A stretch of 52,765 bases of DNA. Origin: an uncultured Alphaproteobacteria bacterium (GTDB lineage Bacteria > Pseudomonadota > Alphaproteobacteria > RF32 > CAG-239). Below, one piece after another: positions 1-52,765 of the stretch. Position 1 is the stretch's first letter; each line of letters begins with the position of its first letter. The notes below the pieces were generated by a model. It was not told the DNA's origin, ran no database searches, and saw only the letters and a program-made list of their open reading frames with translations. The position numbers and the translations under genes are program-made. The DNA lies in contig CALXWB010000007.1 of NCBI GenBank assembly GCA_944392225.1, forward strand, positions 1-52,765, read 5' to 3'.

Positions 1-606
1 ATAAACGTTGCGGAAACCAATTCTTGGAAAACCGCGGGTGATATAGTGGCAGAGGAGCAGCAAAAACAAGAGCAAGAGAAGGCGGCGCAGGCAGAAAAAG
101 AGGCAGAAGAGCAAGCCAACCGCGAGGTTTATCAAAAGCAATATAACAATGCTTTGTCGCAATATGATTCTTTGATTAAAGATAGTTCTTATAAAGGTAT
201 CAATCTTCTTCAAGCCGATGATTTGAAAGTGATTTTTAATGAAAACAGAAGTTCAACCTTAGAGGTGAGCGGTGTAGATTTATCATCCGATAAAATCGGT
301 ATGATGACCGCCGATTGGACCAAGGCCAAAGACGTGCAGACAAGTCTTGACCAGATTATCAATGCCAAAAACACCTTGCGTTCTGCCTCAACTAAACTCG
401 GTAACTATTATTCGATTATTACCGAGAGAGAAACTTTCACAGATAATTTGATTAATGTGCTGGAAGAAGGTGCGGACAAATTAACATTGGCTGATATGAA
501 TGAAGAGTCTGCCAATATGCTCTCCTTGCAAACCCAACAACAACTGGCTATCAATTCATTAAGCCTCGCCTCGCAAGCCAGCCAAGCCGTTCTCCGCCTC
601 TTCTAA
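1..606 (+). CDS. Flagellin, C-terminal part (5' end outside window)
   Basis: The frame is open from base 1 to the TAA at 604-606, so the gene starts before the window; the in-frame GTG at 46 is internal. The visible 201 residues are the C-terminal D0/D1 part of a flagellin, the filament subunit exported by the flagellar type III apparatus. The last ~30 residues carry the hallmark of the family: ANMLSLQTQQQLAINSLSLA followed by SQASQAVLRLF. A highly charged Gln/Glu/Lys-rich helix (roughly residues 16-45 of the visible part) precedes a short variable segment. The C-terminal helix is intact, so the protein is probably functional. It is convergent with the rod operon. Whether other flagellar genes lie upstream cannot be seen. 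Confidence 0.9.
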   Translation: MNVAETNSWKTAGDIVAEEQQKQEQEKAAQAEKEAEEQANREVYQKQYNNALSQYDSLIKDSSYKGINLLQADDLKVIFNENRSSTLEVSGVDLSSDKIGMMTADWTKAKDVQTSLDQIINAKNTLRSASTKLGNYYSIITERETFTDNLINVLEEGADKLTLADMNEESANMLSLQTQQQLAINSLSLASQASQAVLRLF

Positions 607-617
607 GCACATACCTT

Positions 618-810
618 CCGCCAAAAACATAGACAGCATCGCAGCTTCAAGGCACCGCCGGACAGGCAATCAAACCGATGCGATCAAACGCGCTGCGTTT
701 GTTCTAGGCACTTTCACCACGCCAAGGACATGAGTAGCATCGCGGTTTCTAGCCCCAGACAGCGCGGCAGCCAATTAGGGCGATCGAACGCGCTGCGTTC
801 GCGCTAAATT
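618..810. repeat. Tandem imperfect repeat, two ~95-bp units with hairpins
   Basis: Unit 1 (618-710) and unit 2 (719-810) both begin CGCCAA..ACAT and end with a perfect hairpin: CAAACGCGCTGCGTTTG at 685-701 and CGAACGCGCTGCGTTCG at 785-801. The single stem difference is compensated on both sides (A:T against G:C), which points to selection on the folded form. A shorter, more degenerate copy of the unit is visible at 34073-34142. Confidence 0.65.
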
Positions 811-840
811 GCTCTAGTTCCCCGTTATATGAGCTTTTAT

Positions 841-965
841 AAAAAGGTCGTTATGTGAGGAAAATAATAAGATTTAAGGAAAATTGTGAGCGAGCGTACA
901 TAGAGGTACGTGACCGAACAATTTATCCGCAAAATCTGTATTAGTTTCCCACAGAACGACCTTTT
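841..965. repeat. Long palindrome A (about 60 nt per arm)
   Basis: The left arm (841-899) and the reverse complement of the right arm (906-965) align along their whole length with mismatches; the outermost AAAAAGGTCGTT is nearly perfect. The tip is GCGTAC-loop-GGTACG. It lies between convergent flagellin and rodA and could serve as a terminator for both. It belongs to the family also seen near 23.2-23.4, 50.8 and 52.4-52.8 kb. Confidence 0.65.
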
Positions 966-2105
966 TTAATCTTTGCCGATATTCATATTCCTATTAATAT
1001 ACACACACAAGATAATGCCGAAAGAAGACATAACGGAAAGCATCACGGTGCCGCCGTAAGAAATAAGCGGCAACGGAATTCCCACCACGGGGAGCATACC
1101 CAGCACCATGGAAATGTTGATAAAGATATAAAGGAAGTAGTTGCAAGCCAAACCAATGGCAACCAGTTTGCCGAAATAGCTATTGCTCTTCATGGCAAAA
1201 GAATAAGTATAAGCAATAATCAGCAGGTTGACCAAAACCACAAACACGGCGCCGACCATACCAAACTCTTCTGAAAGCATGGTGAAAATAAAGTCGGTAT
1301 GTTTTTCCGGCAAAAAGTTGAGATGGCTTTGCGTGCCTTTCAAAAAGCCTTTGCCGAACACGCCGCCCGAGCCAAGCGCAATTTTAGATTGAATGATATG
1401 ATATCCGGCGCCCAAGGGGTCACGTTCCGGGTCAAGAAAAGTGAGGATTCGGTTTTTTTGATATCCGTGCAAAAACTGCCAAGCAATCGGCAAAGAGAGC
1501 AAGCCGGCCAAGATCACAACGCCAAACTTCCAGAGCTGCACACCCACCACAAAAAAGATCATGCCGGCAGTAAAAAGCAGCATCAAAGCAGTGCCCAAGT
1601 CGGGTTGAATCATCACCAAGAAGGCCGGAACCAGCGTCATCAATGCCGGCGGAATAATACCTCTGATGCTTTCAATGGTTTGCAAAGAAGAAGTATGAAA
1701 ATAGCGTGCCAGAGCCAAAACGAGGGCAATTTTCATCAATTCAGACGGTTGGATTTTAATGATTCCCAAATTAATCCAACGTTGCGCCCCCATGCCGATA
1801 TGGCCTTCCACTTCCACCACAATCAGCAAGAAAAGAGAGGCAAAATAAAACAAATAAGCATAGCGCATAAACCATCTGATATCCATCATAGCCAAGGCAA
1901 TCATCAAGCAAAAGCCAAAAGCAAAACGCACCAAATGGTTCAAGGCCCAAGGGCTCCAACTGCCGTTTGCGGCAGAATAAAGCATCACCACACCGGTTGC
2001 TGCCATCAGAGAAATCAGCAAAATATACATAAAGTTCAAGTTAAAGAACTTTTCTGTCAGGCTCATGGATTGTGTTTTAATTGTGGTTTCATAAAACTTA
2101 TACAT
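966..2105 (-). CDS. rodA: Rod-shape SEDS peptidoglycan glycosyltransferase RodA
   Basis: RodA polymerises lipid II into glycan strands during lateral wall growth, as partner of the transpeptidase PBP2. The 379-residue protein is almost entirely hydrophobic with about ten membrane segments and shows SEDS signatures: DFIFTMLSEEFGMVG in the large periplasmic loop and GIPLPLISYGG near the C terminus. Length is normal for the family. The ATG is preceded by AGAGGAAAAT, a usable Shine-Dalgarno. It is last in mreB-mreC-mreD-mrdA-rodA, 9 bp after mrdA. Its TAA lies at the base of palindrome A. FtsW is the alternative SEDS assignment, but the position directly after PBP2 argues for RodA. Confidence 0.95.
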   Translation of the reverse strand: MYKFYETTIKTQSMSLTEKFFNLNFMYILLISLMAATGVVMLYSAANGSWSPWALNHLVRFAFGFCLMIALAMMDIRWFMRYAYLFYFASLFLLIVVEVEGHIGMGAQRWINLGIIKIQPSELMKIALVLALARYFHTSSLQTIESIRGIIPPALMTLVPAFLVMIQPDLGTALMLLFTAGMIFFVVGVQLWKFGVVILAGLLSLPIAWQFLHGYQKNRILTFLDPERDPLGAGYHIIQSKIALGSGGVFGKGFLKGTQSHLNFLPEKHTDFIFTMLSEEFGMVGAVFVVLVNLLIIAYTYSFAMKSNSYFGKLVAIGLACNYFLYIFINISMVLGMLPVVGIPLPLISYGGTVMLSVMSSFGIILCVYINRNMNIGKD

Positions 2106-2114
2106 ATTTTCCTC

Positions 2115-3998
2115 TTATTCTGACGGAATCACATCTTTTTTCAAGCTCAGCGGCGTGAGCGTTTTTTCCGGCGATGGGTTATAAAGAGAAGTATCAAGCT
2201 TCACGGCCTCCAGCAAAATTTTGCTGGCAATCGGCGCCGCAGCCTTGGAACCGCCGCCGCCATGCTCCACCAAAACCGCCACGGCATATTTAGGGTTATC
2301 CGCCGGAGCATAGCCGACAAACACACCATGGTCACGATATTTCCAGGGCAGTTCATCTTGTTTCAAGATTCGGGTTTGGCGTTCTTTCATGGTAATGCGA
2401 CGCACTTGTGTTGAGCCGGTTTTGCCCGCCATTTTGATTCCGTGATAGTCAAAACGAGAACCGTAAGCCGTTGCTCCGGGCACATTAACCACCTCAAACA
2501 TTCCCTCTTTCACCATATCAATATAGGCAGAGTGAACCTTGATTTTGTTGATATGCGATTTTTCATCACTGGTCAGTTTGGTAAACGTGGGTTTAACCTC
2601 ATAGCCGCCGTTAGCCACACGTGCCACCATGGTGGCCAGCTGCAAAGGCGTGGTCAAAATATAACCTTGCCCAATGCCGGAAATCAGGCTTTCGCCTTGT
2701 TGCCAAGGCTCGCCGAAACGTTTGAGTTTCCAGGCCTTGTCAGGAATAAGCCCGGCTTTTTCGTTTTCCAGACCGACATTAATTTTGCTGCCCAAACCAA
2801 AACGGCGCGCCATATCGGCAAGTTTTTCGATTCCCAAGCGCAAAGCCGTTTCATAAAAGAAAATATCGCAAGAATGTTTTAAGGCTTCAATCACGTTCAA
2901 ATACCCATGGCCGATACGTTTCCAACAGTGGAAAGTATGTGTGCCCAAGGTCATTTTGGCAGCGCAGAAAAAGCGGGTATCCGGCTTGATTGTGCCGGAT
3001 TCGAGAGCTGCCAGCGCGGTGATGATTTTGAAAGTTGACCCCGGAGAATATTGCCCGGAAATGGCCTTATTGCTCAACGGCTTTTTCTCGTTGGAAAGGA
3101 GTTCTTTCCACTCGGCATTAGAGATTCCCTTAGAAAAAGCATTGGGGTCAAAGGAAGGCGCGGAAACAAAAGCCAAAATTTCACCGCTGTGCACATCAAG
3201 CAAAATCGCGGCTCCGCTCTGGTCTTGTTCGGCAAACAAGTCATAAGCTTTTTCTTGCAAGCGGGCATCAATGGTCAGGTCAACGCGCTCACCGGGGATT
3301 CCCTCGTTTTTCTCAATTTCTTTCATCACGCGGCCATAAGCATTGACCTCGGATTTAAGGTTGCCGCCCTTGCCGCGCAATTTTTTCTCGAACAATTTTT
3401 CAATTCCCGATTTACCGATTTTAAAATCAGGCACTTCAAGCAACGGATCATCTTTTTCATCTTTATCGGAAACAGCGGCCACATACCCCAAAACATGAGC
3501 CATTTTTTCGCCATAAGGATAATATCTGGACAAGCCTTCATCAATAATCACACCGGGCAAATCCGGCGCATTGAGCTGGATTTTTGAAACCTCTTCCCAG
3601 GTCAGATTATCTTTAATTTTGATTGGCACAAAGCTCTTATTGGCTTTCAAATCTTTTTTAATGCGTTTTTCTTCAGCCTCGCTGAGGGGCATAATTTTTT
3701 TGAAAGCATCCAGCGTTTGTTGCAAATTTGGGGTTTGTTCCGCCACAATAAGTGCTTGAAAATTTTGTTGATTGGTTGCAATCACCACGCCGTTTCTGTC
3801 ATAAATCAAACCACGAGGAGGCACGAGCAAGCGTGTGGAAATTCGGTTCTCATCAGCCAAAGTTTTATACTTATCAGCTTGATAAACCTGCAAATAATAT
3901 AGGCGCAAGATGATGCACATCAAGAGCACAAATTTGCCCACGGCCACAATCAAAGAGCGGTTGATTAAAACTTTTCCTTTATCATTATCCCGATTCAT
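2115..3998 (-). CDS. mrdA: Penicillin-binding protein 2, elongation transpeptidase
   Basis: This class B PBP cross-links new glycan made by RodA in the elongasome. It has one N-terminal membrane anchor (about residues 12-32), a PBP dimerisation/pedestal region, and a C-terminal transpeptidase domain with all three active-site motifs: SPGSTFK (nucleophile serine), SCD, and AGKTGS. The 627 residues match the family. GAGG sits 6-7 bp before the ATG. The gene is 1 bp from the mreD stop codon, consistent with translational coupling in the rod operon. No motif is altered, so a normal beta-lactam target is expected. Confidence 0.95.
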   Translation of the reverse strand: MNRDNDKGKVLINRSLIVAVGKFVLLMCIILRLYYLQVYQADKYKTLADENRISTRLLVPPRGLIYDRNGVVIATNQQNFQALIVAEQTPNLQQTLDAFKKIMPLSEAEEKRIKKDLKANKSFVPIKIKDNLTWEEVSKIQLNAPDLPGVIIDEGLSRYYPYGEKMAHVLGYVAAVSDKDEKDDPLLEVPDFKIGKSGIEKLFEKKLRGKGGNLKSEVNAYGRVMKEIEKNEGIPGERVDLTIDARLQEKAYDLFAEQDQSGAAILLDVHSGEILAFVSAPSFDPNAFSKGISNAEWKELLSNEKKPLSNKAISGQYSPGSTFKIITALAALESGTIKPDTRFFCAAKMTLGTHTFHCWKRIGHGYLNVIEALKHSCDIFFYETALRLGIEKLADMARRFGLGSKINVGLENEKAGLIPDKAWKLKRFGEPWQQGESLISGIGQGYILTTPLQLATMVARVANGGYEVKPTFTKLTSDEKSHINKIKVHSAYIDMVKEGMFEVVNVPGATAYGSRFDYHGIKMAGKTGSTQVRRITMKERQTRILKQDELPWKYRDHGVFVGYAPADNPKYAVAVLVEHGGGGSKAAAPIASKILLEAVKLDTSLYNPSPEKTLTPLSLKKDVIPSE

Positions 3999-3999
3999 A

Positions 4000-4560
4000 T
4001 CACACCTCGTCTTGAATCAGATAATTTTGCACAAAGGCATTAAGAAGCGACAAAACGGGATAAGCCGCCACCGAGAAAAGATAACTGAAAGCCACCTGTG
4101 CAAAAGGTAAAAACTGCCCATAATAAATGGAAACCATCAACCATTTGGTCAACATAGTCAGCAAACAAACAATGGCAAAGCCATACCATGTCACAATAAA
4201 AGGTTTGCCGTTAAAAAAGCGGCCGAAATTGAGCAACAAAATATAGAGCACCAACAAAGAAAGGATATTTGTTCCCATGGGCACGGAGCTCAACACATCT
4301 TCAATCAAGCCCAAGAAATAAACCGAAAACAGGTTAAAAATATCGGGTCTGTGAATAATCCAATAATAAACGCAGACAAAAGCCACCGCCGGTCTGATAT
4401 TTTCAGACAAGAAAAAATCTAAAGGCACATAAGACAAAAAAATCAACAGCAAAGAAAAAATAAACGGGATTAGCCTCTGGAAATAACTTTTCACATTTTC
4501 GGTCATTTCCTCGCGGATCAGATTTCTATCAGCCATGGAGTTGAACTTATTGCTGCTCAT
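4000..4560 (-). CDS. mreD: Rod-shape-determining membrane protein MreD
   Basis: MreD is a small integral membrane partner of MreC and the RodA-PBP2 complex. About five hydrophobic helices are visible; the segment FFLSENIRPAVAFVCVYYW and the following DIFNLFSVYFLGLIEDVL are typical of the family. I place the start at 4560 (MSSNKF...), because GAGGGAA lies about 9 bp upstream; this overlaps the 3' end of mreC by 14 bp. An in-frame extension to 4602 runs deeper into mreC, and a later ATG at 4536 has no ribosome-binding site. Sequence conservation in MreD is weak; position between mreC and mrdA supports the name. Confidence 0.9.
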   Translation of the reverse strand: MSSNKFNSMADRNLIREEMTENVKSYFQRLIPFIFSLLLIFLSYVPLDFFLSENIRPAVAFVCVYYWIIHRPDIFNLFSVYFLGLIEDVLSSVPMGTNILSLLVLYILLLNFGRFFNGKPFIVTWYGFAIVCLLTMLTKWLMVSIYYGQFLPFAQVAFSYLFSVAAYPVLSLLNAFVQNYLIQDEV

Positions 4561-5401
4561 CGTTAATGATTCCCTCAAGTCCATAATCCACAATCCGAAC
4601 ATATTCCAAGCTATCCAAATTGCTATAAGGTTTAATGGTCACATTATTTTTATCAATTGCAGCCACTTTGCCAACGGGCAACCCGGCAGGAAACACGCCG
4701 GCCACGCCGGAAGTAACGATTCTGTCTCCGATATTGAGTTCGGCATCAAGCGGAATAAAAATCATTTTGGGGATAGAAGTATTATCTCCGGCCAAAATAC
4801 CTCTGACTCTGTTTTTCTCCACCATCACGGGCACGCGAGAGTTGATATCGGTAATGAGCAAAATTTTAGAATACATATTACCAACCTTATCCACTCTGCC
4901 GACAACACCTCTGTCGCTCAAAACAACCTGCCCTTTTTTCACGGCATCTCCATTGCCGGTATAAGCAATCACGGAGTGAGAAAAAGCATCTCCCTCTTCA
5001 GCAATGATTCTGGCGGTCACAAACTTGGCCTCCGGCGGAGCAACATAATTCAGCAAACTGCCGAGGAGCTTATTTTCCACCTCCAAGACCTTCATTTTAT
5101 CATACATATTGAGGAGTTTTTTGTTTTCTTCTTTCAGGTTTTGATTGTCTTTATAAACTTCTTTAATCTCGCCGAAATAATCATACACGCCGGCCACCAA
5201 GCGTGCCGGAACCACCAAAAAATCGACCATAGGGCTGATCATATCCGTTGCCACGGAAGAAGTTTTTTCAATAATCAAACTTTCGGTTTTGTTCAAGAGC
5301 ATCATGGCAAAAGCAGAAATGACCAAAATCACGATAGCAAATTTTTTGGCCAAAATGCGAATATAGCTCAAGTGAATAAATAAACTTCTGCGCCTTTTCA
5401 T
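4547..5401 (-). CDS. mreC: Rod-shape-determining protein MreC
   Basis: MreC is a bitopic periplasmic protein that activates PBP2 and connects it to MreB filaments. The sequence shows an N-terminal membrane segment (about residues 15-40), a coiled coil (about residues 75-105), then the beta-rich MreC domain with typical pieces such as VVSDRGVVGRVDKVG-like VLSDRGVVGRVD, ITDINSRVPV and GDRIVTSGVAGVFPAGLPVG. 284 residues is normal. A 102-bp gap separates it from mreB, containing an 8-bp inverted repeat (5432-5439 with 5486-5493) around a 46-nt loop. It overlaps mreD by 14 bp. Confidence 0.95.
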   Translation of the reverse strand: MKRRRSLFIHLSYIRILAKKFAIVILVISAFAMMLLNKTESLIIEKTSSVATDMISPMVDFLVVPARLVAGVYDYFGEIKEVYKDNQNLKEENKKLLNMYDKMKVLEVENKLLGSLLNYVAPPEAKFVTARIIAEEGDAFSHSVIAYTGNGDAVKKGQVVLSDRGVVGRVDKVGNMYSKILLITDINSRVPVMVEKNRVRGILAGDNTSIPKMIFIPLDAELNIGDRIVTSGVAGVFPAGLPVGKVAAIDKNNVTIKPYSNLDSLEYVRIVDYGLEGIINDEQQ

Positions 5402-5503
5402 AGCTCACTCATCAAACAAAACAAAAAAACAATAAAGGTCCGCCCGATTGTCCAAGAGAAAAACTCACAGACAAAATAAGAACGAACCTTTATCCGACAA
5501 AAA

Positions 5504-6556
<1,053 letters not shown>

Positions 6557-6587
6557 TTAATTTAACATTTAATTTTATTATTTTAGT

Positions 6588-6617
6588 TTTATAACCATAG
6601 ATTATTTAGTGCAACAA
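6588..6617 (-). promoter_or_regulatory. Candidate sigma-70 promoter of the mreB operon
   Basis: Read on the minus strand: TTGTTG (6612-6617), an 18-nt spacer, and TATAAA (6588-6593), about 44 bp before the mreB ATG. It lies directly after the miaA stop codon, suggesting that the rod operon can be transcribed separately from miaA. Pattern match only. Confidence 0.5.
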
Positions 6618-7550
6618 TTATAATCTTTTTTTAACATCATTTATTATATGCAATTGTCCGCTATAACATTTTTCGACATAAACATCGGCTCTCAATTTAT
6701 GCGTAAACCAAGTTCTTTGTCTTTTGGCATATTGTCTGGTTCTAAGTTTTGCCATCATAATGGCGTTATCCAAAGACACTTCACCTTTAATAAAGCGCAT
6801 GAGTTCGGGCACGCCCACGGCTTTCATTGCGGGCAGATTTTCATCAAGTCTTCTTTCTGCCAAGTGCACGACCTCGGCCAAAACGCCTTTTTGGATCATA
6901 TGGTCAAAGCGCTCAAAGCACCGATCATCAAGTTCTCTTTTCAAAGGCATCAGTTCCGTCACGGTAAAATGGGCCTCGGGCAAAACTTTAATCATGCCTT
7001 TTTTAAACCACTCAGAAATCGGGATTCCTGTTTGCAAATAGACCTCGCAGGCTTTTGTCACACGGCCCAAATCGCTTGACGGAAGCTTGGCTGCCGTTTC
7101 GGGGTCAAACTCTTTAAGCTGAGCATGCAAATTGCGCAAGCCGTTTTCGCGGCACCATTTCCGCACATGTTCTCTGATATTGGGGTCAATTTCCGGGATT
7201 GGCGTTGTTCCTTTGATTAAATAATCAATATACATGCCGGTTCCGCCCACCACAATCGGGAGCTTGCCATTTTCCCAGCAGTTTTTGATTTCTTCTGCAG
7301 CTTTGTTCACCCAATCAACCACGGTAGCGTTATAAGCCGCATCATAAATTCCGTAAAGCTTGTGCGGTGCTTTGGCTTTGTCGGCTTCCGTCGGTGCGGC
7401 GGAGATAATGGGAATATCTTTATAAGTCTGCATTGAATCGGCATTAATGACCACGCCGTCGCAATCCTGAGCCAAATCCAAAGCCAGAGCCGATTTTCCC
7501 GAAGCGGTCAATCCTGCAATTATAAGAACCCGATGAGATGCATCAAACAT
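6618..7550 (-). CDS. miaA: tRNA dimethylallyltransferase MiaA
   Basis: MiaA transfers the dimethylallyl group of DMAPP to N6 of A37 in tRNAs reading UNN codons. The P-loop AGLTASGKS is at about residues 12-20, followed by the family signature INADSMQTYKDIPIISAAPT, GGTGMYIDYLI, and the C-terminal tRNA-binding part ending in RTRQYAKRQRTWF. The 310 residues are a typical length. It is 21 bp downstream of ddl on the same strand and ends at the candidate mreB promoter. Confidence 0.97.
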   Translation of the reverse strand: MFDASHRVLIIAGLTASGKSALALDLAQDCDGVVINADSMQTYKDIPIISAAPTEADKAKAPHKLYGIYDAAYNATVVDWVNKAAEEIKNCWENGKLPIVVGGTGMYIDYLIKGTTPIPEIDPNIREHVRKWCRENGLRNLHAQLKEFDPETAAKLPSSDLGRVTKACEVYLQTGIPISEWFKKGMIKVLPEAHFTVTELMPLKRELDDRCFERFDHMIQKGVLAEVVHLAERRLDENLPAMKAVGVPELMRFIKGEVSLDNAIMMAKLRTRQYAKRQRTWFTHKLRADVYVEKCYSGQLHIINDVKKRL

Positions 7551-7571
7551 ATTTTTATTCCCTTAATCAAA

Positions 7572-8480
7572 TTACATTTTGCGGCAGATGGCGTTTTCCA
7601 CCAATTGAGCACATAAGTCATCATAAGAAATACCGCGATATTTTGCCTGTTCCGGCACCAAAGAAAGCGGGGTCATACCGGGAGCGGTATTAATTTCGAG
7701 TAAGACCACGCCGTCCTTTTCATTATAACGAAAATCGCATCTTGAAACCATATTGCAGCCCAATCTGGCGTGCAGTTTTTCGGCATAAGCCATACAAGTA
7801 TTAGTCGCTTCATCGGGGATTTCAGCCGGCAAAATATGATAGGTCACGCCTTGTGTATATTTTGCGCCATAATCATAGAAATCATTATCGGTTTTGAGCT
7901 CGGTCACGGCCAAAGCTTTTCCGGCCCAAACGGCGCAAGTCAACTCACGTCCGGGGATATAATCCTCAATCATAATTTCTCGGTTTTCATCTTCATAAGA
8001 AACATTTTTAACATCATCTTCATTTTCCACAATAAAGACCCCGACGCTAGAGCCGTCACAAACAGGTTTCACCACATAAGGAAAGCTGAGTTGAGTTCCC
8101 TCTTTTTTATATTCGGCAAAAGTTTTAACCTCACTGTCAGCCACGCGGATATCGCAACCTCTGCAAACCATTTTGGTTATAGCCTTATCCATACCCACGG
8201 CAGAAGCCTTCAAATCAGAATGTGTATAAGGGATTTGCAAATAGTCAAACACGCCCTGAATTTCGCCGTCTTCGCCCCAGTTTCCGTGCAGAGCATTAAA
8301 AATCACATCGGGTTTATTTTTACGAATTTCATCAAAAAGCTCAAAAATATTGTTCAACACGAAAGGATAAGCCTTATATCCTTTTCTGTTCAAAGCCTCG
8401 ACCGCGCCTTCACCGCTGACAATGCTGACATCTCTTTCGGCGGAAAGACCGCCCATCAAAACCAAAACCTTTTTATTCAT
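7572..8480 (-). CDS. ddl: D-alanine--D-alanine ligase
   Basis: Ddl makes the D-Ala-D-Ala dipeptide for the peptidoglycan stem, using ATP. The ATP-grasp fold is visible: N-terminal VLMGGLSAERDVS, HGNWGEDGEIQGVFDYLQIPYTHS-type substrate region, the central PYVVKPVCDGSSVGV, and the metal-binding EINTAPGMTPLSLVP. The ATG at 8480 follows AAGGACAAGATTAAAA and is preferred over an upstream TTG at 8504. It is away from the dcw cluster, next to miaA and the rod operon. Final metal-site residue order (EINTAPGMT) looks intact. Confidence 0.96.
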   Translation of the reverse strand: MNKKVLVLMGGLSAERDVSIVSGEGAVEALNRKGYKAYPFVLNNIFELFDEIRKNKPDVIFNALHGNWGEDGEIQGVFDYLQIPYTHSDLKASAVGMDKAITKMVCRGCDIRVADSEVKTFAEYKKEGTQLSFPYVVKPVCDGSSVGVFIVENEDDVKNVSYEDENREIMIEDYIPGRELTCAVWAGKALAVTELKTDNDFYDYGAKYTQGVTYHILPAEIPDEATNTCMAYAEKLHARLGCNMVSRCDFRYNEKDGVVLLEINTAPGMTPLSLVPEQAKYRGISYDDLCAQLVENAICRKM

Positions 8481-23207: not shown

Positions 23208-23433
23208 AAAAACTCGGAGAATGAGGCGAGTAGTAGGCGCCGAGGGAAAAAGTACCGGAGTTCTGCCGCAAAAGAAAGCACCCAAATGTGCTTTCTTTAA
23301 GGAAAAGCAATGAGACTTGGCTTTGAAAGAATGCGACAGCTTTCGTAACAAAGCCTTAGTCGGAATTGAAAAGCGTACATGAGGACACTTTTTACCCGAT
23401 GGCAACGCACTAATCGCCCATTATACGAGTTTT
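23208..23433. repeat. Interrupted long palindrome B upstream of truA
   Basis: This fills most of the 330-bp gap before truA, with no gene. The left arm (about 23208-23258, beginning AAAAACTCGG) matches the reverse complement of 23378-23433 (ending ACGAGTTTT), including GGGAAAAAGT against GGGTAAAAAGTGT. Between the arms lie two smaller hairpins: AGAAAGCAC-CCAAAT-GTGCTTTCT at 23273-23296 and GGCTTTG...CAAAGCC at 23320-23355. The right arm carries the family tip GTACATGAGG. Confidence 0.5.
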
Positions 23434-50820: not shown

Positions 50821-50949
50821 GATAAATTTAGATAGCGTGTGCAAATAAAGTGATTTCTAGTGGCGAGAAAAATTTTAGTGTACAAACCAGTACATGAATT
50901 TTTCGAGACCGCGTAAAATTGCTTTAGTTGCCAGCTAGATGAATTTATC
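50821..50949. repeat. Long palindrome C (about 60 nt per arm)
   Basis: Left arm 50821-50883 (GATAAATTTAGATAGC ... TTAGTGTAC), loop AAACCA, right arm 50890-50949 (GTACATGAATTTTTC ... GAATTTATC). The arms are complementary along their length with scattered mismatches and short bulges. The tip TAGTGTAC-loop-GTACATGAA is the family hallmark. Confidence 0.75.
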
Positions 50950-50978
50950 CATCTTCGAACTCGGCTCAAGTTACTTTA

Positions 50979-51012
50979 GCGCCCCTCGTCCATAAGCCCT
51001 TCGGACGACCGG
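50979..51012. repeat. Hairpin repeat, loop family CATAAGCCCT (copy 2)
   Basis: GCCCCTCGTCC-ATAAGCCCTTC-GGACGACCGG. The same loop as copy 1 at 50165-50203 with compensated stem changes (T:A to G:C). Confidence 0.6.
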
Positions 51013-51052
51013 AACAATTATTATCATAAAGATAAAAAATAAAATTGCAACA

Positions 51053-51088
51053 AAAAAAGAGCTTGGAAAATATCCAAACTCTTTTTTT
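51053..51088 (-). terminator. Terminator after the paralogous pair
   Basis: AAAAAAGAGCTTGGA-AAATA-TCCAAACTCTTTTTTT, 9 bp after the stop codon of the 51097-51600 gene. Confidence 0.85.
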
Positions 51089-51096
51089 ATTTCTTT

Positions 51097-51600
51097 TCAA
51101 AGAAGCTTACGATGGCGATCGTAAAGCTCTTTCAGTTTTGCCATGACAATCGGCAAAGCCAGGGATTTAAACTCTTCGGCTGTGCCCAACTTGTCTTGAA
51201 AGAGATAGCGCCATTGCAAAAAGTTGAGCCAAAGGGTTTTCCCTTCAAAGTCTTTGACAATGCCGCGTGCATTCCAAAACATCAGGGAAAAAACTCTTTT
51301 TTGCGCCACAATTTTCTTGGCAAGGCGATACTTTTGCAAATCTTCCATCAGAGTCACGCCAAAATCAGACGCTACAGTTTGTTTCAGTGCTGATTGCAAT
51401 TGTTCTTGAGCCAGATTAAAGGCTTCTTCATAAACCAACGGCACTTCAAAAAGTGTATCACTCTGACTTTTTGTCACAGTGAGAAGAACCACGTCGTCAT
51501 AATTTTTGGCATAATAAAGTTCTGCCACTTTAGCCAAAGCTTTTTGATAATCGGCCAAAGTCATCTCAGGCTTGGAGATGAGATTAAGAAATCTTTTCAT
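51097..51600 (-). CDS. Unknown protein, paralogue of the upstream gene (167 aa)
   Basis: A soluble helical protein. Its C-terminal 50 residues (LWLNFLQWRYLFQDKLGTAE, EFKSLALPIVMAKLKEL) clearly match those of the upstream gene (YLEYLQWRYIYKDRYGTAED). No known family is recognised. Starts in an ATGA overlap (51597-51600) with the upstream gene, so the two are translationally coupled, as expected for subunits of one complex or a recent tandem duplication that has diverged strongly at the N terminus. Confidence 0.75.
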   Translation of the reverse strand: MKRFLNLISKPEMTLADYQKALAKVAELYYAKNYDDVVLLTVTKSQSDTLFEVPLVYEEAFNLAQEQLQSALKQTVASDFGVTLMEDLQKYRLAKKIVAQKRVFSLMFWNARGIVKDFEGKTLWLNFLQWRYLFQDKLGTAEEFKSLALPIVMAKLKELYDRHRKLL

Positions 51601-52109
51601 TGTTCCAAAAGTTCAATGTATTTCTGATTAATTTGCTCAATTCTCTCTGCCATAGTCGGGAAAAAAGCTTGTTTGAAGTCTTCCGCTGTGCCATATCTAT
51701 CTTTATAAATATAGCGCCACTGCAAATACTCCAAATAACTGAACTTTTCTTCCAGCTGATCAACCCAAATCCAAGATTTCCAATACGATCTGGACCAAAT
51801 TTTACCATGATGCAAGAAACCTTGAAGAGATTTATATTTCTTCAACGCAGCTTCCATCCCATTACCCAGCTCTTCTGTCAAAGGGTGATCAAACCGAAAT
51901 TCCAAGATGTCTTTAATTTGTCTTAAAGAATTCAAGCGCAAGGTTTGGACGTTAGCTGTGATATCATCCAAACGAACATATGCTCCGGAAAGGATATATC
52001 CGCATTGAAGATCATAAAAATTTTCTGCCGCAACGACGGCCATTTCCTGATACCACTCCAGAGGCATTTTTTGCTCTGAAAGTTGGTCTACAAACTCATT
52101 AAACTTCAT
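51597..52109 (-). CDS. Unknown protein, paralogue of the downstream gene (170 aa)
   Basis: From MKFNEFVDQL the protein has 170 residues, soluble and helical, with aromatic-rich C terminus (SRSYWKSWIWVDQLEEKFSY, LQWRYIYKDRYGTAEDFKQA). The shared motif LQWRY-x2-x-D-x2-GTAE-x-FK defines a small family with the following gene. The ATG follows TTAAAGAAATT with no clear ribosome-binding site; a strong promoter candidate TTGACA-16-TATGTT is at 52152-52179. An in-frame extension to 52163 crosses that promoter and is rejected. Confidence 0.72.
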   Translation of the reverse strand: MKFNEFVDQLSEQKMPLEWYQEMAVVAAENFYDLQCGYILSGAYVRLDDITANVQTLRLNSLRQIKDILEFRFDHPLTEELGNGMEAALKKYKSLQGFLHHGKIWSRSYWKSWIWVDQLEEKFSYLEYLQWRYIYKDRYGTAEDFKQAFFPTMAERIEQINQKYIELLEQ

Positions 52110-52151
52110 AATTTCTTTAATTTTAAGATTAATAATTATTTTATGAATCAT

Positions 52152-52179
52152 AACATATTGCACTAGACAAATTTGTCAA
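52152..52179 (-). promoter_or_regulatory. Promoter of the paralogous pair
   Basis: Minus strand: consensus -35 TTGACA (52174-52179), 16-nt spacer, TATGTT (52152-52157), about 43 bp before the ATG. Confidence 0.6.
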
Positions 52180-52232
52180 CAAAAACTTTTTACACCTCAA
52201 ACACCAACATTGATGATATGGCTTCCAATGAG

Positions 52233-52253
52233 ATTCCGAAACAAGCTCGGAAT
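52233..52253. repeat. Small dispersed palindrome
   Basis: ATTCCGA-AACAAGC-TCGGAAT, followed by GACC. This type of sequence is widespread between genes in many bacteria and translates as EIPKQ-RND when misread as coding. Confidence 0.6.
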
Positions 52254-52356
52254 GACCTAGACGCCTTCCCTTTTCTACGAGGCACTTATAGAAACTCGAT
52301 AATTGAGATGAGTAGAAGCAAAAATAGAAAAGCCGAAAATCCTAGTAACCGCTAAG

Positions 52357-52384
52357 TAAAAATGCCTTTAATATGGCATTTTTA
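52357..52384. terminator. Terminator-like hairpin
   Basis: TAAAAATGCC-TTTAATA-TGGCATTTTTA. No gene ends here within the window on the plus strand, so it may end a short RNA or be part of the repeat block. Confidence 0.5.
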
Positions 52385-52389
52385 TCTGC

Positions 52390-52520
52390 AAGGTCTTTGG
52401 AACATCTTGTTGAGCTAGGTGATGATAATCGCCGCAGCGAAACTAGATGCCTAAGCAAAGAAGTACATGAATTTCGACCGTTCTGTAGTTTTTACGCTCA
52501 TCATCATCTCTACGAACTTT
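52390..52520. repeat. Degenerate long palindrome D
   Basis: The right arm from GTACATGAATTTCGACCG (52463-52480) onward is intact; the left arm matches only in blocks (GTGATGATAATCG, GAAACTAGATG). 35 nt of the right arm (52459-52493) are identical to those of palindrome F at 52730-52764. Confidence 0.45.
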
Positions 52521-52534
52521 CCACGAAGCACTTT

Positions 52535-52664
52535 TTTAGAACGCAGAGAATAGTTCAGATAGAGTGAAAATAAGAAAGGGAAAAATCCTAATGTAGTTAA
52601 GCCTACATGAATTTTTCCCTTTTCGAAATTTTCGCTCTAGGTGAGCTGTTATATGCCTTCTAAA
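52535..52664. repeat. Long palindrome E (62 nt per arm)
   Basis: Left arm 52535-52596, loop TTAAGC, right arm 52603-52664. The arms are nearly equal in length and pair along most positions; the central GGGAAAAAT / ATTTTTCCC and outer TTTAGAA / TTCTAAA are perfect. Tip: CTAATGTAG-loop-CTACATGAA, a variant with G:C closing. Confidence 0.75.
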
Positions 52665-52695
52665 TCATAAAAGCTCAAGATTTGCGGCTTATAGC

Positions 52696-52765
52696 GTGAA
52701 AAACAAAGCGGTCGAAATTCTAGTGTACAAGAAGTACATGAATTTCGACCGTTCTGTAGTTTTTT
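52696..52765. repeat. Long palindrome F, cut by the window end
   Basis: CGGTCGAAATTCTAGTGTAC (52709-52728)-loop AAGAA-GTACATGAATTTCGACCG: a perfect 16-18-bp stem apart from a two-base bulge, extending outward into ACAAAG/CTGTAG until the window stops. Confidence 0.7.

Follow-up and report, generated by a model that had tools for sequence, protein, structure and literature searches.

What are the long palindromes that lie between the genes of this DNA, and what keeps them in shape and in place? The window, by which we mean the whole stretch of 52,765 nucleotides (nt) analysed, is a contig of an uncultured alphaproteobacterium (RF32; CAG-239). A sequence-only reading of the window had proposed a family of intergenic palindromes with a nearly constant tip and stems that change together. 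The palindromes do exist: they can be read in the sequence at the window sites given below and fold as long hairpins. That they all belong to one family of small, non-coding, ERIC-type hairpin elements, of about 126 bp per unit, is well supported. Two of their properties are new here. The orientation of the units follows replication, and the element sits almost only directly behind the stop codon of genes that are codirectional with replication.

We trained a covariance model (R1) on 11 copies from the genome that holds the window, three of them in the window itself. In the 1.46-Mb draft of this genome R1 found 29 matches at E≤1, including three second-strand readings of the same place, and a stricter search found 22, so the family indeed has many copies. 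Because the draft assembly breaks at these repeats, the counts in this genome are lower bounds and the true copy numbers are probably higher. We then scored 89 genomes (this one and relatives), and 47 had matches: 45 of the 49 genomes of the same family, the sole searched genome of another family in the order, and a single genome from a third family. The remaining four of the 49 had no R1 match. Copy numbers among relatives range from 0 to about 40 or more, the counts near 40 being lower bounds with at most 42 candidates scored per genome. In a survey of 385 genomes of the class, with at most nine candidates scored in each, 10 had a match at E≤1e-4 (four of the same family, two in family f23, and four with a single match). 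Possible relatives in other families of the class lie at L255 (genome G298), L256 (G070), L254 (G098) and L257–L259, and in three of the four single-match genomes the unit is within 6 nt of the stop codon of an antisense gene. All genomes are drafts, gene calls are simple open reading frame (ORF) calls, and gene names beyond the Pfam results were assigned by eye; the stretches fetched for analysis, 80 plus the window, were picked around copies. Rfam gave no match in the window, and when it was searched by E-value in five loci the sole item above its gathering score was a tRNA. A phage collection searched with window positions 1–8000 gave distant gene-level matches alone, in 11 records.

A unit is about 114–126 nt long, and head-to-tail arrays are common, with a period of mostly 125–128 bp and model edges of adjacent tandem units mostly about 9–25 nt apart. 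The units share one layout. From the outside inwards, a foot helix that varies and carries A/T tracts is followed by a 3x3 internal loop, a helix in which one base bulges, 11 bp of further helix, an asymmetric loop, the upper stem, and lastly a 6-bp tip helix closed by a loop of 4–7 nt. It was seen in most of the 39 displayed units from other genomes of the family, and a few damaged units (e.g., L067:1376) give a partial fold. On the plus strand the tip reads AGYGTAC-loop-GTACRTGA. It is conserved rather than constant as had been proposed: five of its six pairs show double changes (e.g., GTAG/CTAC at 52535). The two-base bulge on the left side, which the sequence-only reading took to recur, is seen in type-A units.

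Do the stems change together more often than chance would give? In a MAFFT alignment of 11 sequences, 18 of 27 pairs had double changes (7.4 in shuffles), and the covariation score was 0.469 versus 0.205 for shuffled and at most 0.131 for slid alignments. MAFFT misaligns types B and C to type A around the tip, a flaw that R1 and the pair counts of this alignment share. We also used an alignment of 150 rows, fitted to the model and hence biased towards it, which holds the best 150 of 176 matches (set A3; six of the 26 excluded are second-strand readings of a counted copy). Here, double changes were found in 26 of 27 pairs, 92.5% of cells paired (72.9% after shuffling and no more than 50.6% after sliding), and the covariation score of 0.544 versus 0.194 was reached by none of 500 shuffles. 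The co-variation claimed from the sequence thus holds beyond shuffled levels, and so does the argument that simple decay of one transposon is inadequate, since a large bulged hairpin is kept while its stems change. Arms could also change together with no selection on shape, by self-correction of the palindrome through template switching between its arms. Quasi-palindromes are known to undergo template switching, and self-correction is known for them. However, self-correction would erase conserved mismatches, and the imperfect positions persist: the G.T at the foot of the tip helix is GU in 126 of 147 distinct rows, and the 3x3 loop and the single-base bulge are present in most displayed units. 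Their persistence therefore counts against self-correction, which we consider very unlikely as the source of the co-changing arms.

The two strands of a unit do not fold equally well. With RNA energies the plus strand outfolds its complement in 142 of 150 copies, with DNA energies in 146 of 150. Single mismatches on the plus strand are G.T rather than A.C (106 versus 22) and G.A rather than C.T (128 versus 1). Because the plus strand folds better and its mismatches are biased to G.T and G.A, it is the strand whose shape is kept, as RNA or as single-stranded DNA.

We next asked how the plus strand is oriented. Of the 150 best copies, 147 have it on the strand with negative GC skew, and orientation is uniform in each of the 78 stretches that hold a counted copy. 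Among stretches of at least 10 kb, 69 of 72 agree with the negative-skew rule. The three copies that break it are all in one genome (G001), in stretches of weak or locally negative skew, and two of them lie less than 500 bases from a contig end. In the lists of nine genomes, counted by eye with second-strand readings of the same place set aside, all 35 contigs with at least two copies carry them on a single strand; the longest same-strand runs are 12 copies over 116–335 kb (G003:C1) and 11 copies over 14–400 kb (G038:C10). Arm matches outside units follow the same strand in 98 of 99 cases. The negative-skew strand is usually the template of leading-strand synthesis. By this sign the plus strand is the leading-strand template, and genes, mostly on the positive-skew strand, are consistent with this reading of the skew.

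Neighboring genes define the second rule. The units fall into 117 clusters, of which 101 are flanked by called genes on either side and 16 lie at edges where a neighbor is missing. With the plus strand as the frame, the gene on the right is antisense in 97 of the 101 clusters, and the distance from the model edge to the stop codon of this antisense gene is between −20 and +18 nt in 91 of the 97. Not one of the 97 has a gap of 19–116 nt behind the stop. TAA, TAG and TGA are all used at the units, and the A-tract/T-tract feet overlap the stop codon. The opposite end of the unit behaves differently, with a median gap of about 114 nt and a facing stop equally close in only 2 of 35 convergent cases. 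Only 5 of the 117 clusters overlap an ORF of at least 150 amino acids. We also took the best copy from each of 26 genomes, a set that includes two genomes of the main counts (G018 and G038). The stop-side gene was antisense in 24 of the 26, with its stop within −25 to +18 nt in 18; three of these 18 are single copies from other families of the class.

The orientation of the units might simply be a by-product of gene direction. To address this, we compared genes with and without a unit behind them, dropping genes in stretches with |skew| <0.05. Seventy of 71 genes with a unit were codirectional with replication, versus 674 of 1,065 genes without one (391 head-on), which rules out gene direction alone. 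Nor are the conserved genes the reason: among genes present in at least four genomes, the ratio of codirectional to head-on genes was 48:0 with a unit and 231:124 without. When the skew cut-off was removed, genes with a unit behind them still divided 87:3. Thus two conditions hold jointly for the units, a position behind a stop codon and a codirectional gene. Taken together, the structure, orientation and stop-codon placement make up a descriptive account of which we are confident.

A position behind stop codons would also be expected of a functional 3′ element that the host selects: a terminator, a protector of mRNA 3′ ends or an RNase site, with gains and losses reflecting selection. The A-tract/T-tract feet fit such a role, as do the housekeeping neighbors assigned by eye (e.g., IF-2, RbfA, PNPase), and the case resembles what is reported for ERIC in Yersinia, with literature on ERIC orientation and RNase E in its favor (PMC2229807, PMC10969869). 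Yet the best-folding strand is antisense to the mRNA of the gene. Moreover, in G018 a unit separates rpsG from fusA (gene names assigned by eye). The four family genomes without a match also speak against a 3′ element, and an mRNA role alone leaves the avoidance of head-on genes unexplained (70:1 versus 674:391). We consider a host-selected 3′ element rather unlikely. More generally, a role as RNA in the direction of the neighboring gene, one of the options of the sequence-only reading, is unlikely to be the main constraint because the best-folding strand is antisense to the abutting gene and because orientation tracks replication more tightly than gene direction requires.

How do units come and go? 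The clearest empty site is at rpsG|fusA (identified by eye from the translation): five relatives have a short spacer there, and in G018 a unit starts in the TAA and leaves the protein end unchanged and the ribosome-binding region before fusA in place. Within the genus, we assigned 103 clusters to 52 sites, a site being the gene flank on the stop side, and 17 sites were common to at least two genomes. Fifteen of these 17 had one or more species pairs with units less than 75% alike despite similar flanks; where the flanks were at least 90% alike, 6 of 31 pairs held such dissimilar units. Different units at the same site in related genomes are a further observation that is new here. In two alignments, one species has a complete unit while the other has the left arm of that unit up to the tip, followed by a complete, different unit and the gene end. 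At these sites we infer the direction of the exchange. Elsewhere, including the exceptional site at 23208, a whole unit of another type occupies the same place. Array sizes often differ by multiples of about 120–127 bp, and 20 of 53 comparisons were equal within 15 nt. No target duplication was readable at the compared sites.

Fragments of units carry related information. We tallied 87 fragments, excluding those on the opposite strand: 67 are single arms, 15 are nearly whole and five pass the tip, with no middle pieces. For 42 of the 67 single arms, the end lies no more than 14 nt from the loop center. For this tally we used blastn, the nhmmer arm profiles being unequal in sensitivity (74 left versus 152 right matches). 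Left and right arms are about equally frequent (37 versus 30; 25 versus 27 in a same-strand set elsewhere). We dropped target-primed reverse transcription with 5′ truncation because lone left and right arms are equally frequent.

A dedicated enzyme could move the units, and we searched for three families, Y1_Tnp (PF01797), RVT_1 and DDE_3, comparing their occurrence with copy number by eye. Among the 17 genomes with at least 20 copies, Y1_Tnp was found in seven, RVT_1 in six and DDE_3 in none; all three were missing from five of the 17. A DDE_3 search of 50 genomes of the order gave no match at all, which speaks against an IS630/Tc1-mariner miniature inverted-repeat transposable element, and RVT_1 in just 6 of 17 high-copy genomes speaks against a retroelement (group II intron, retron). 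The sequence-only reading had suggested a REP-type or single-strand transposase. An origin from REP/RAYT or IS200/IS605 palindromes would suit an imperfect bulged hairpin with a strand bias, but Y1_Tnp had no match in the draft of the window's own genome or in 10 of the 17 high-copy genomes and does not follow copy number, and units of about 126 bp are not short. The Y1/REP transposase is thus rejected as the mover, and we find an origin of this kind hardly credible.

The units could still be a miniature transposon of the conventional type, mobilised in trans by a transposase that escaped recognition and requires a single-stranded target at forks, with harmful copies lost later. Transposition of single-stranded DNA is replication-biased, copy number varies widely among relatives and the build is ERIC-like, all of which would fit. 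However, none of the three enzyme families tracks copy number, and no target duplication was readable. A transposase that reads a DNA motif is also unexpected because all three kinds of stop codon are used, and the absence of gaps of 19–116 nt in 97 clusters is likewise against it. We regard a conventional miniature transposon as improbable.

What process, then, could set a hairpin, in one orientation, just after the stop of a gene that runs with replication? We propose that the unit may be a hairpin that moves or is exchanged, with a fixed end next to the stop codon and a variable end away from it. The likeliest route would be copying during leading-strand synthesis. At a codirectional gene, the nascent leading strand would carry the sense sequence of the gene. 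It would halt just past the stop codon, at the point of ribosome release from the mRNA, and an RNA:DNA hybrid could form there on the template; the replisome can use mRNA after meeting an RNA polymerase from behind. The halted strand would switch to the plus-strand template of an element copy, copy it and rejoin the chromosome at a more distant point, in many cases close to the tip of a resident hairpin, so that the intervening sequence would be lost. This scheme supposes a direction of exchange, a pause, an R-loop and a template switch, and no dedicated enzyme would be needed. A leading-strand halt followed by a template switch would be one process that meets all the constraints. We offer the leading-strand route as a tentative model. 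The broader proposition, a selfish or host-borne hairpin placed jointly by translation and replication and spreading by template switching without a transposase, is doubtful.

The copies within the window illustrate both the rules and the exceptions; all are on the plus strand. A complete type-B unit spans 841–966 (sequence, fold, and an R1 match at 848–960 of 88.9 bits), and on the right it reaches into the stop codon of an FtsW/RodA/SpoVE-like gene on the minus strand (966–2105; PF01098, E 7.5e-95), the TAA of which (968–966) overlaps the foot of the unit. Immediately to its left lies the remnant right arm of an older unit (802–833; weak R1 match at 755–833, E 0.024). The palindrome region 23208–23433 is an interrupted type-C unit, with a left arm (23214–23261), an inserted stretch of about 115 nt at the tip that folds as hairpins (23262–23378) and a right arm (23379–23429). 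The insert is missing from the orthologous unit in G006. A complete type-A unit lies at 50828–50943 (palindrome 50821–50949; sequence, fold, R1). It has an unusual foot stem, AAATTTAGATAGC/GCTAGATGAATTT, and the nearest called stop to its right is about 150 nt away, making it an exception to the stop-codon rule. The copy that the sequence-only reading had placed at 52390–52520 is not a palindrome of that extent. The fold shows a left arm (52296–52346) and a right arm (52467–52493) separated by an insert of about 120 nt at the tip (52347–52466), a two-hairpin stretch. This insert nearly matches contig C12 (L003, reverse strand, about 171–290), and the right arm is of a different kind from that in L003. 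Since the right arms beside the insert differ between contigs C7 and C12, one copy looks recombined, and the copy at 52296–52493 looks chimaeric. A complete unit with the tip GTAG/CTAC follows at 52543–52657 (palindrome 52535–52664; R1 85.9 bits, fold). The last unit (52675–52765, palindrome from 52667) is truncated at the end of the contig, where the window ends too; contig C12 opens with near-identical sequence (L003:1–100).

Two further observations concern sequences within or beside the units. A two-hairpin stretch of about 105–115 nt (AAAGAAAGCACC...GTGCTTTCTTT and GGCTTTG...CAAAGCC) sits inside units at varying points: at the tip in 23262–23378, near the foot in L006 (about 287–392), and within L146:10600–10880, where it stands in for the greater part of a left arm. 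This stretch may be a second repeat, making use of the hairpin units. To the right of the 50828 unit, about 90 nt (50950–51040) are strongly conserved in three relatives with no obvious gene, possibly a short ORF or an RNA.

How close are the units to ERIC? We read the units as an ERIC-like build, in a variant not previously described. ERIC (also IRU or RU-1) is likewise an imperfect palindrome over its full length of about 126–127 bp. Three E. coli copies that we folded have the foot helix, the 3x3 loop, the long stem and the 6-bp tip of the units, and in all three the forward strand folds better, in the same sense as in the units. The outer stem of ERIC varies with compensation, as in the units, although in one analysis the script was allowed to choose the best-pairing boundaries. 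The central core of ERIC, which from the primers we take to be GGAGCTTAC-ATAA-GTAAGTGACTGGGG and which was seen in the loci, has a pattern similar to the AG(Y)GTAC-loop-GTAC(R)TGA of the units in other letters. We trained a second model, R2, on 31 of 80 enterobacterial ERIC loci, selected for intact feet. On 1.46 Mb of unit genomes it gave seven matches at E≤10, six of which are R1 units on the same strand from end to end; the best had an E-value of 0.0021, and such weak scores are partial support. On 16 whole genomes, R2 gave 16 matches at E≤0.1 in six genomes, of which 13 coincide with R1 units and three are unchecked. The units are thus probably related to ERIC. ERIC has TA at both ends and a target duplication (PMC2229807, Table 1) and is reported from Enterobacteriaceae and Vibrionaceae (PMC10969869).

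The placement rules set the units apart from ERIC. ERIC shows no replication bias: the negative-skew strand carries its forward strand in 38 of 69 copies (17 of 40 for |skew| of at least 0.03). The gene contexts of the 80 ERIC loci are mixed (29 +E+, 16 −E−, 14 −E+ and 10 +E−, with six at edges and five inside ORFs). Strict rules of orientation and stop codon as a general ERIC property are ruled out by these counts. Among the ERIC loci (L160–L239), 26 have an antisense gene at the right end, and in 15 of these its stop is no more than 15 nt away; at the left end, a facing stop is that close in 8 of 39. ERIC thus has a weak form of the stop-codon rule.

Weighing the explanation as a whole, we lean slightly towards it. 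Several results weigh against it. Ten of 101 clusters break the placement rule, four without an antisense gene and six with gaps of at least 117 nt, and in the window the 23208–23433 copy lies between two plus-strand genes. The direction of replication was taken from GC skew, computed on stretches no longer than 20 kb (52.8 kb for the window), rather than from a mapped origin. Among 53 high-identity comparisons of fetched stretches, there was no clean recent insertion into an empty site, and the parity of left and right arms leaves no 5′-truncation signature of reverse transcription. Homology to ERIC is not proven because the reverse search fails and the letter alignment is near the shuffled level: R1 gave no ERIC match at E≤10 in the 80 enterobacterial loci and none in the three E. 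coli loci, and a plain alignment of ERIC with the units scored 50.3 versus 46.1 (sd 5.9) for mononucleotide-shuffled units. R2, in turn, had no match at E≤0.1 in 10 of the 16 genomes, some of them with about 40 copies.

The movement of ERIC-type elements is an open question; according to a 2007 review, movement by transposases has been hypothesised without experimental support (PMC2229807). A placement that is nearly deterministic (behind a stop, codirectional, one way round, with different units at one site) sharply constrains any mechanism and makes it testable by comparison of strains. If leading strands do stall at these sites, the units would map encounters between replication, transcription and translation in bacteria known only from drafts, and the genome would carry a fossil record of leading-strand stalls in which older hairpins are overwritten at the same spot.

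Other small repeats share some of these properties. Integron attC sites flank gene cassettes, and the spacing between adjacent units is too short for a cassette. Rickettsia palindromic elements (RPE) are known for in-frame insertion inside genes, unlike the units, few of which overlap a long ORF. RPE are otherwise similar in kind, being palindromes of 105–146 bp with long stem loops (PMC2229807). REP/BIME elements with RAYT are, like the units, extragenic palindromes with a bulge, but REP are short, 20–40 bp (PMC3733652), and tied to Y1 transposases (PMC2817692). The passages of the small-repeat literature consulted, with statements on ERIC orientation coming through reviews, describe no repeat with a near-absolute replication orientation. 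The nearest parallels are in pneumococcus. There, BOX encodes the stop codon of a gene in 36 cases, and BOX, RUP and SPRITE repeats lie on the leading strand in 61–63% of cases, mirroring the coding bias (PMC3049150), versus the 147 of 150 copies that follow one strand here.

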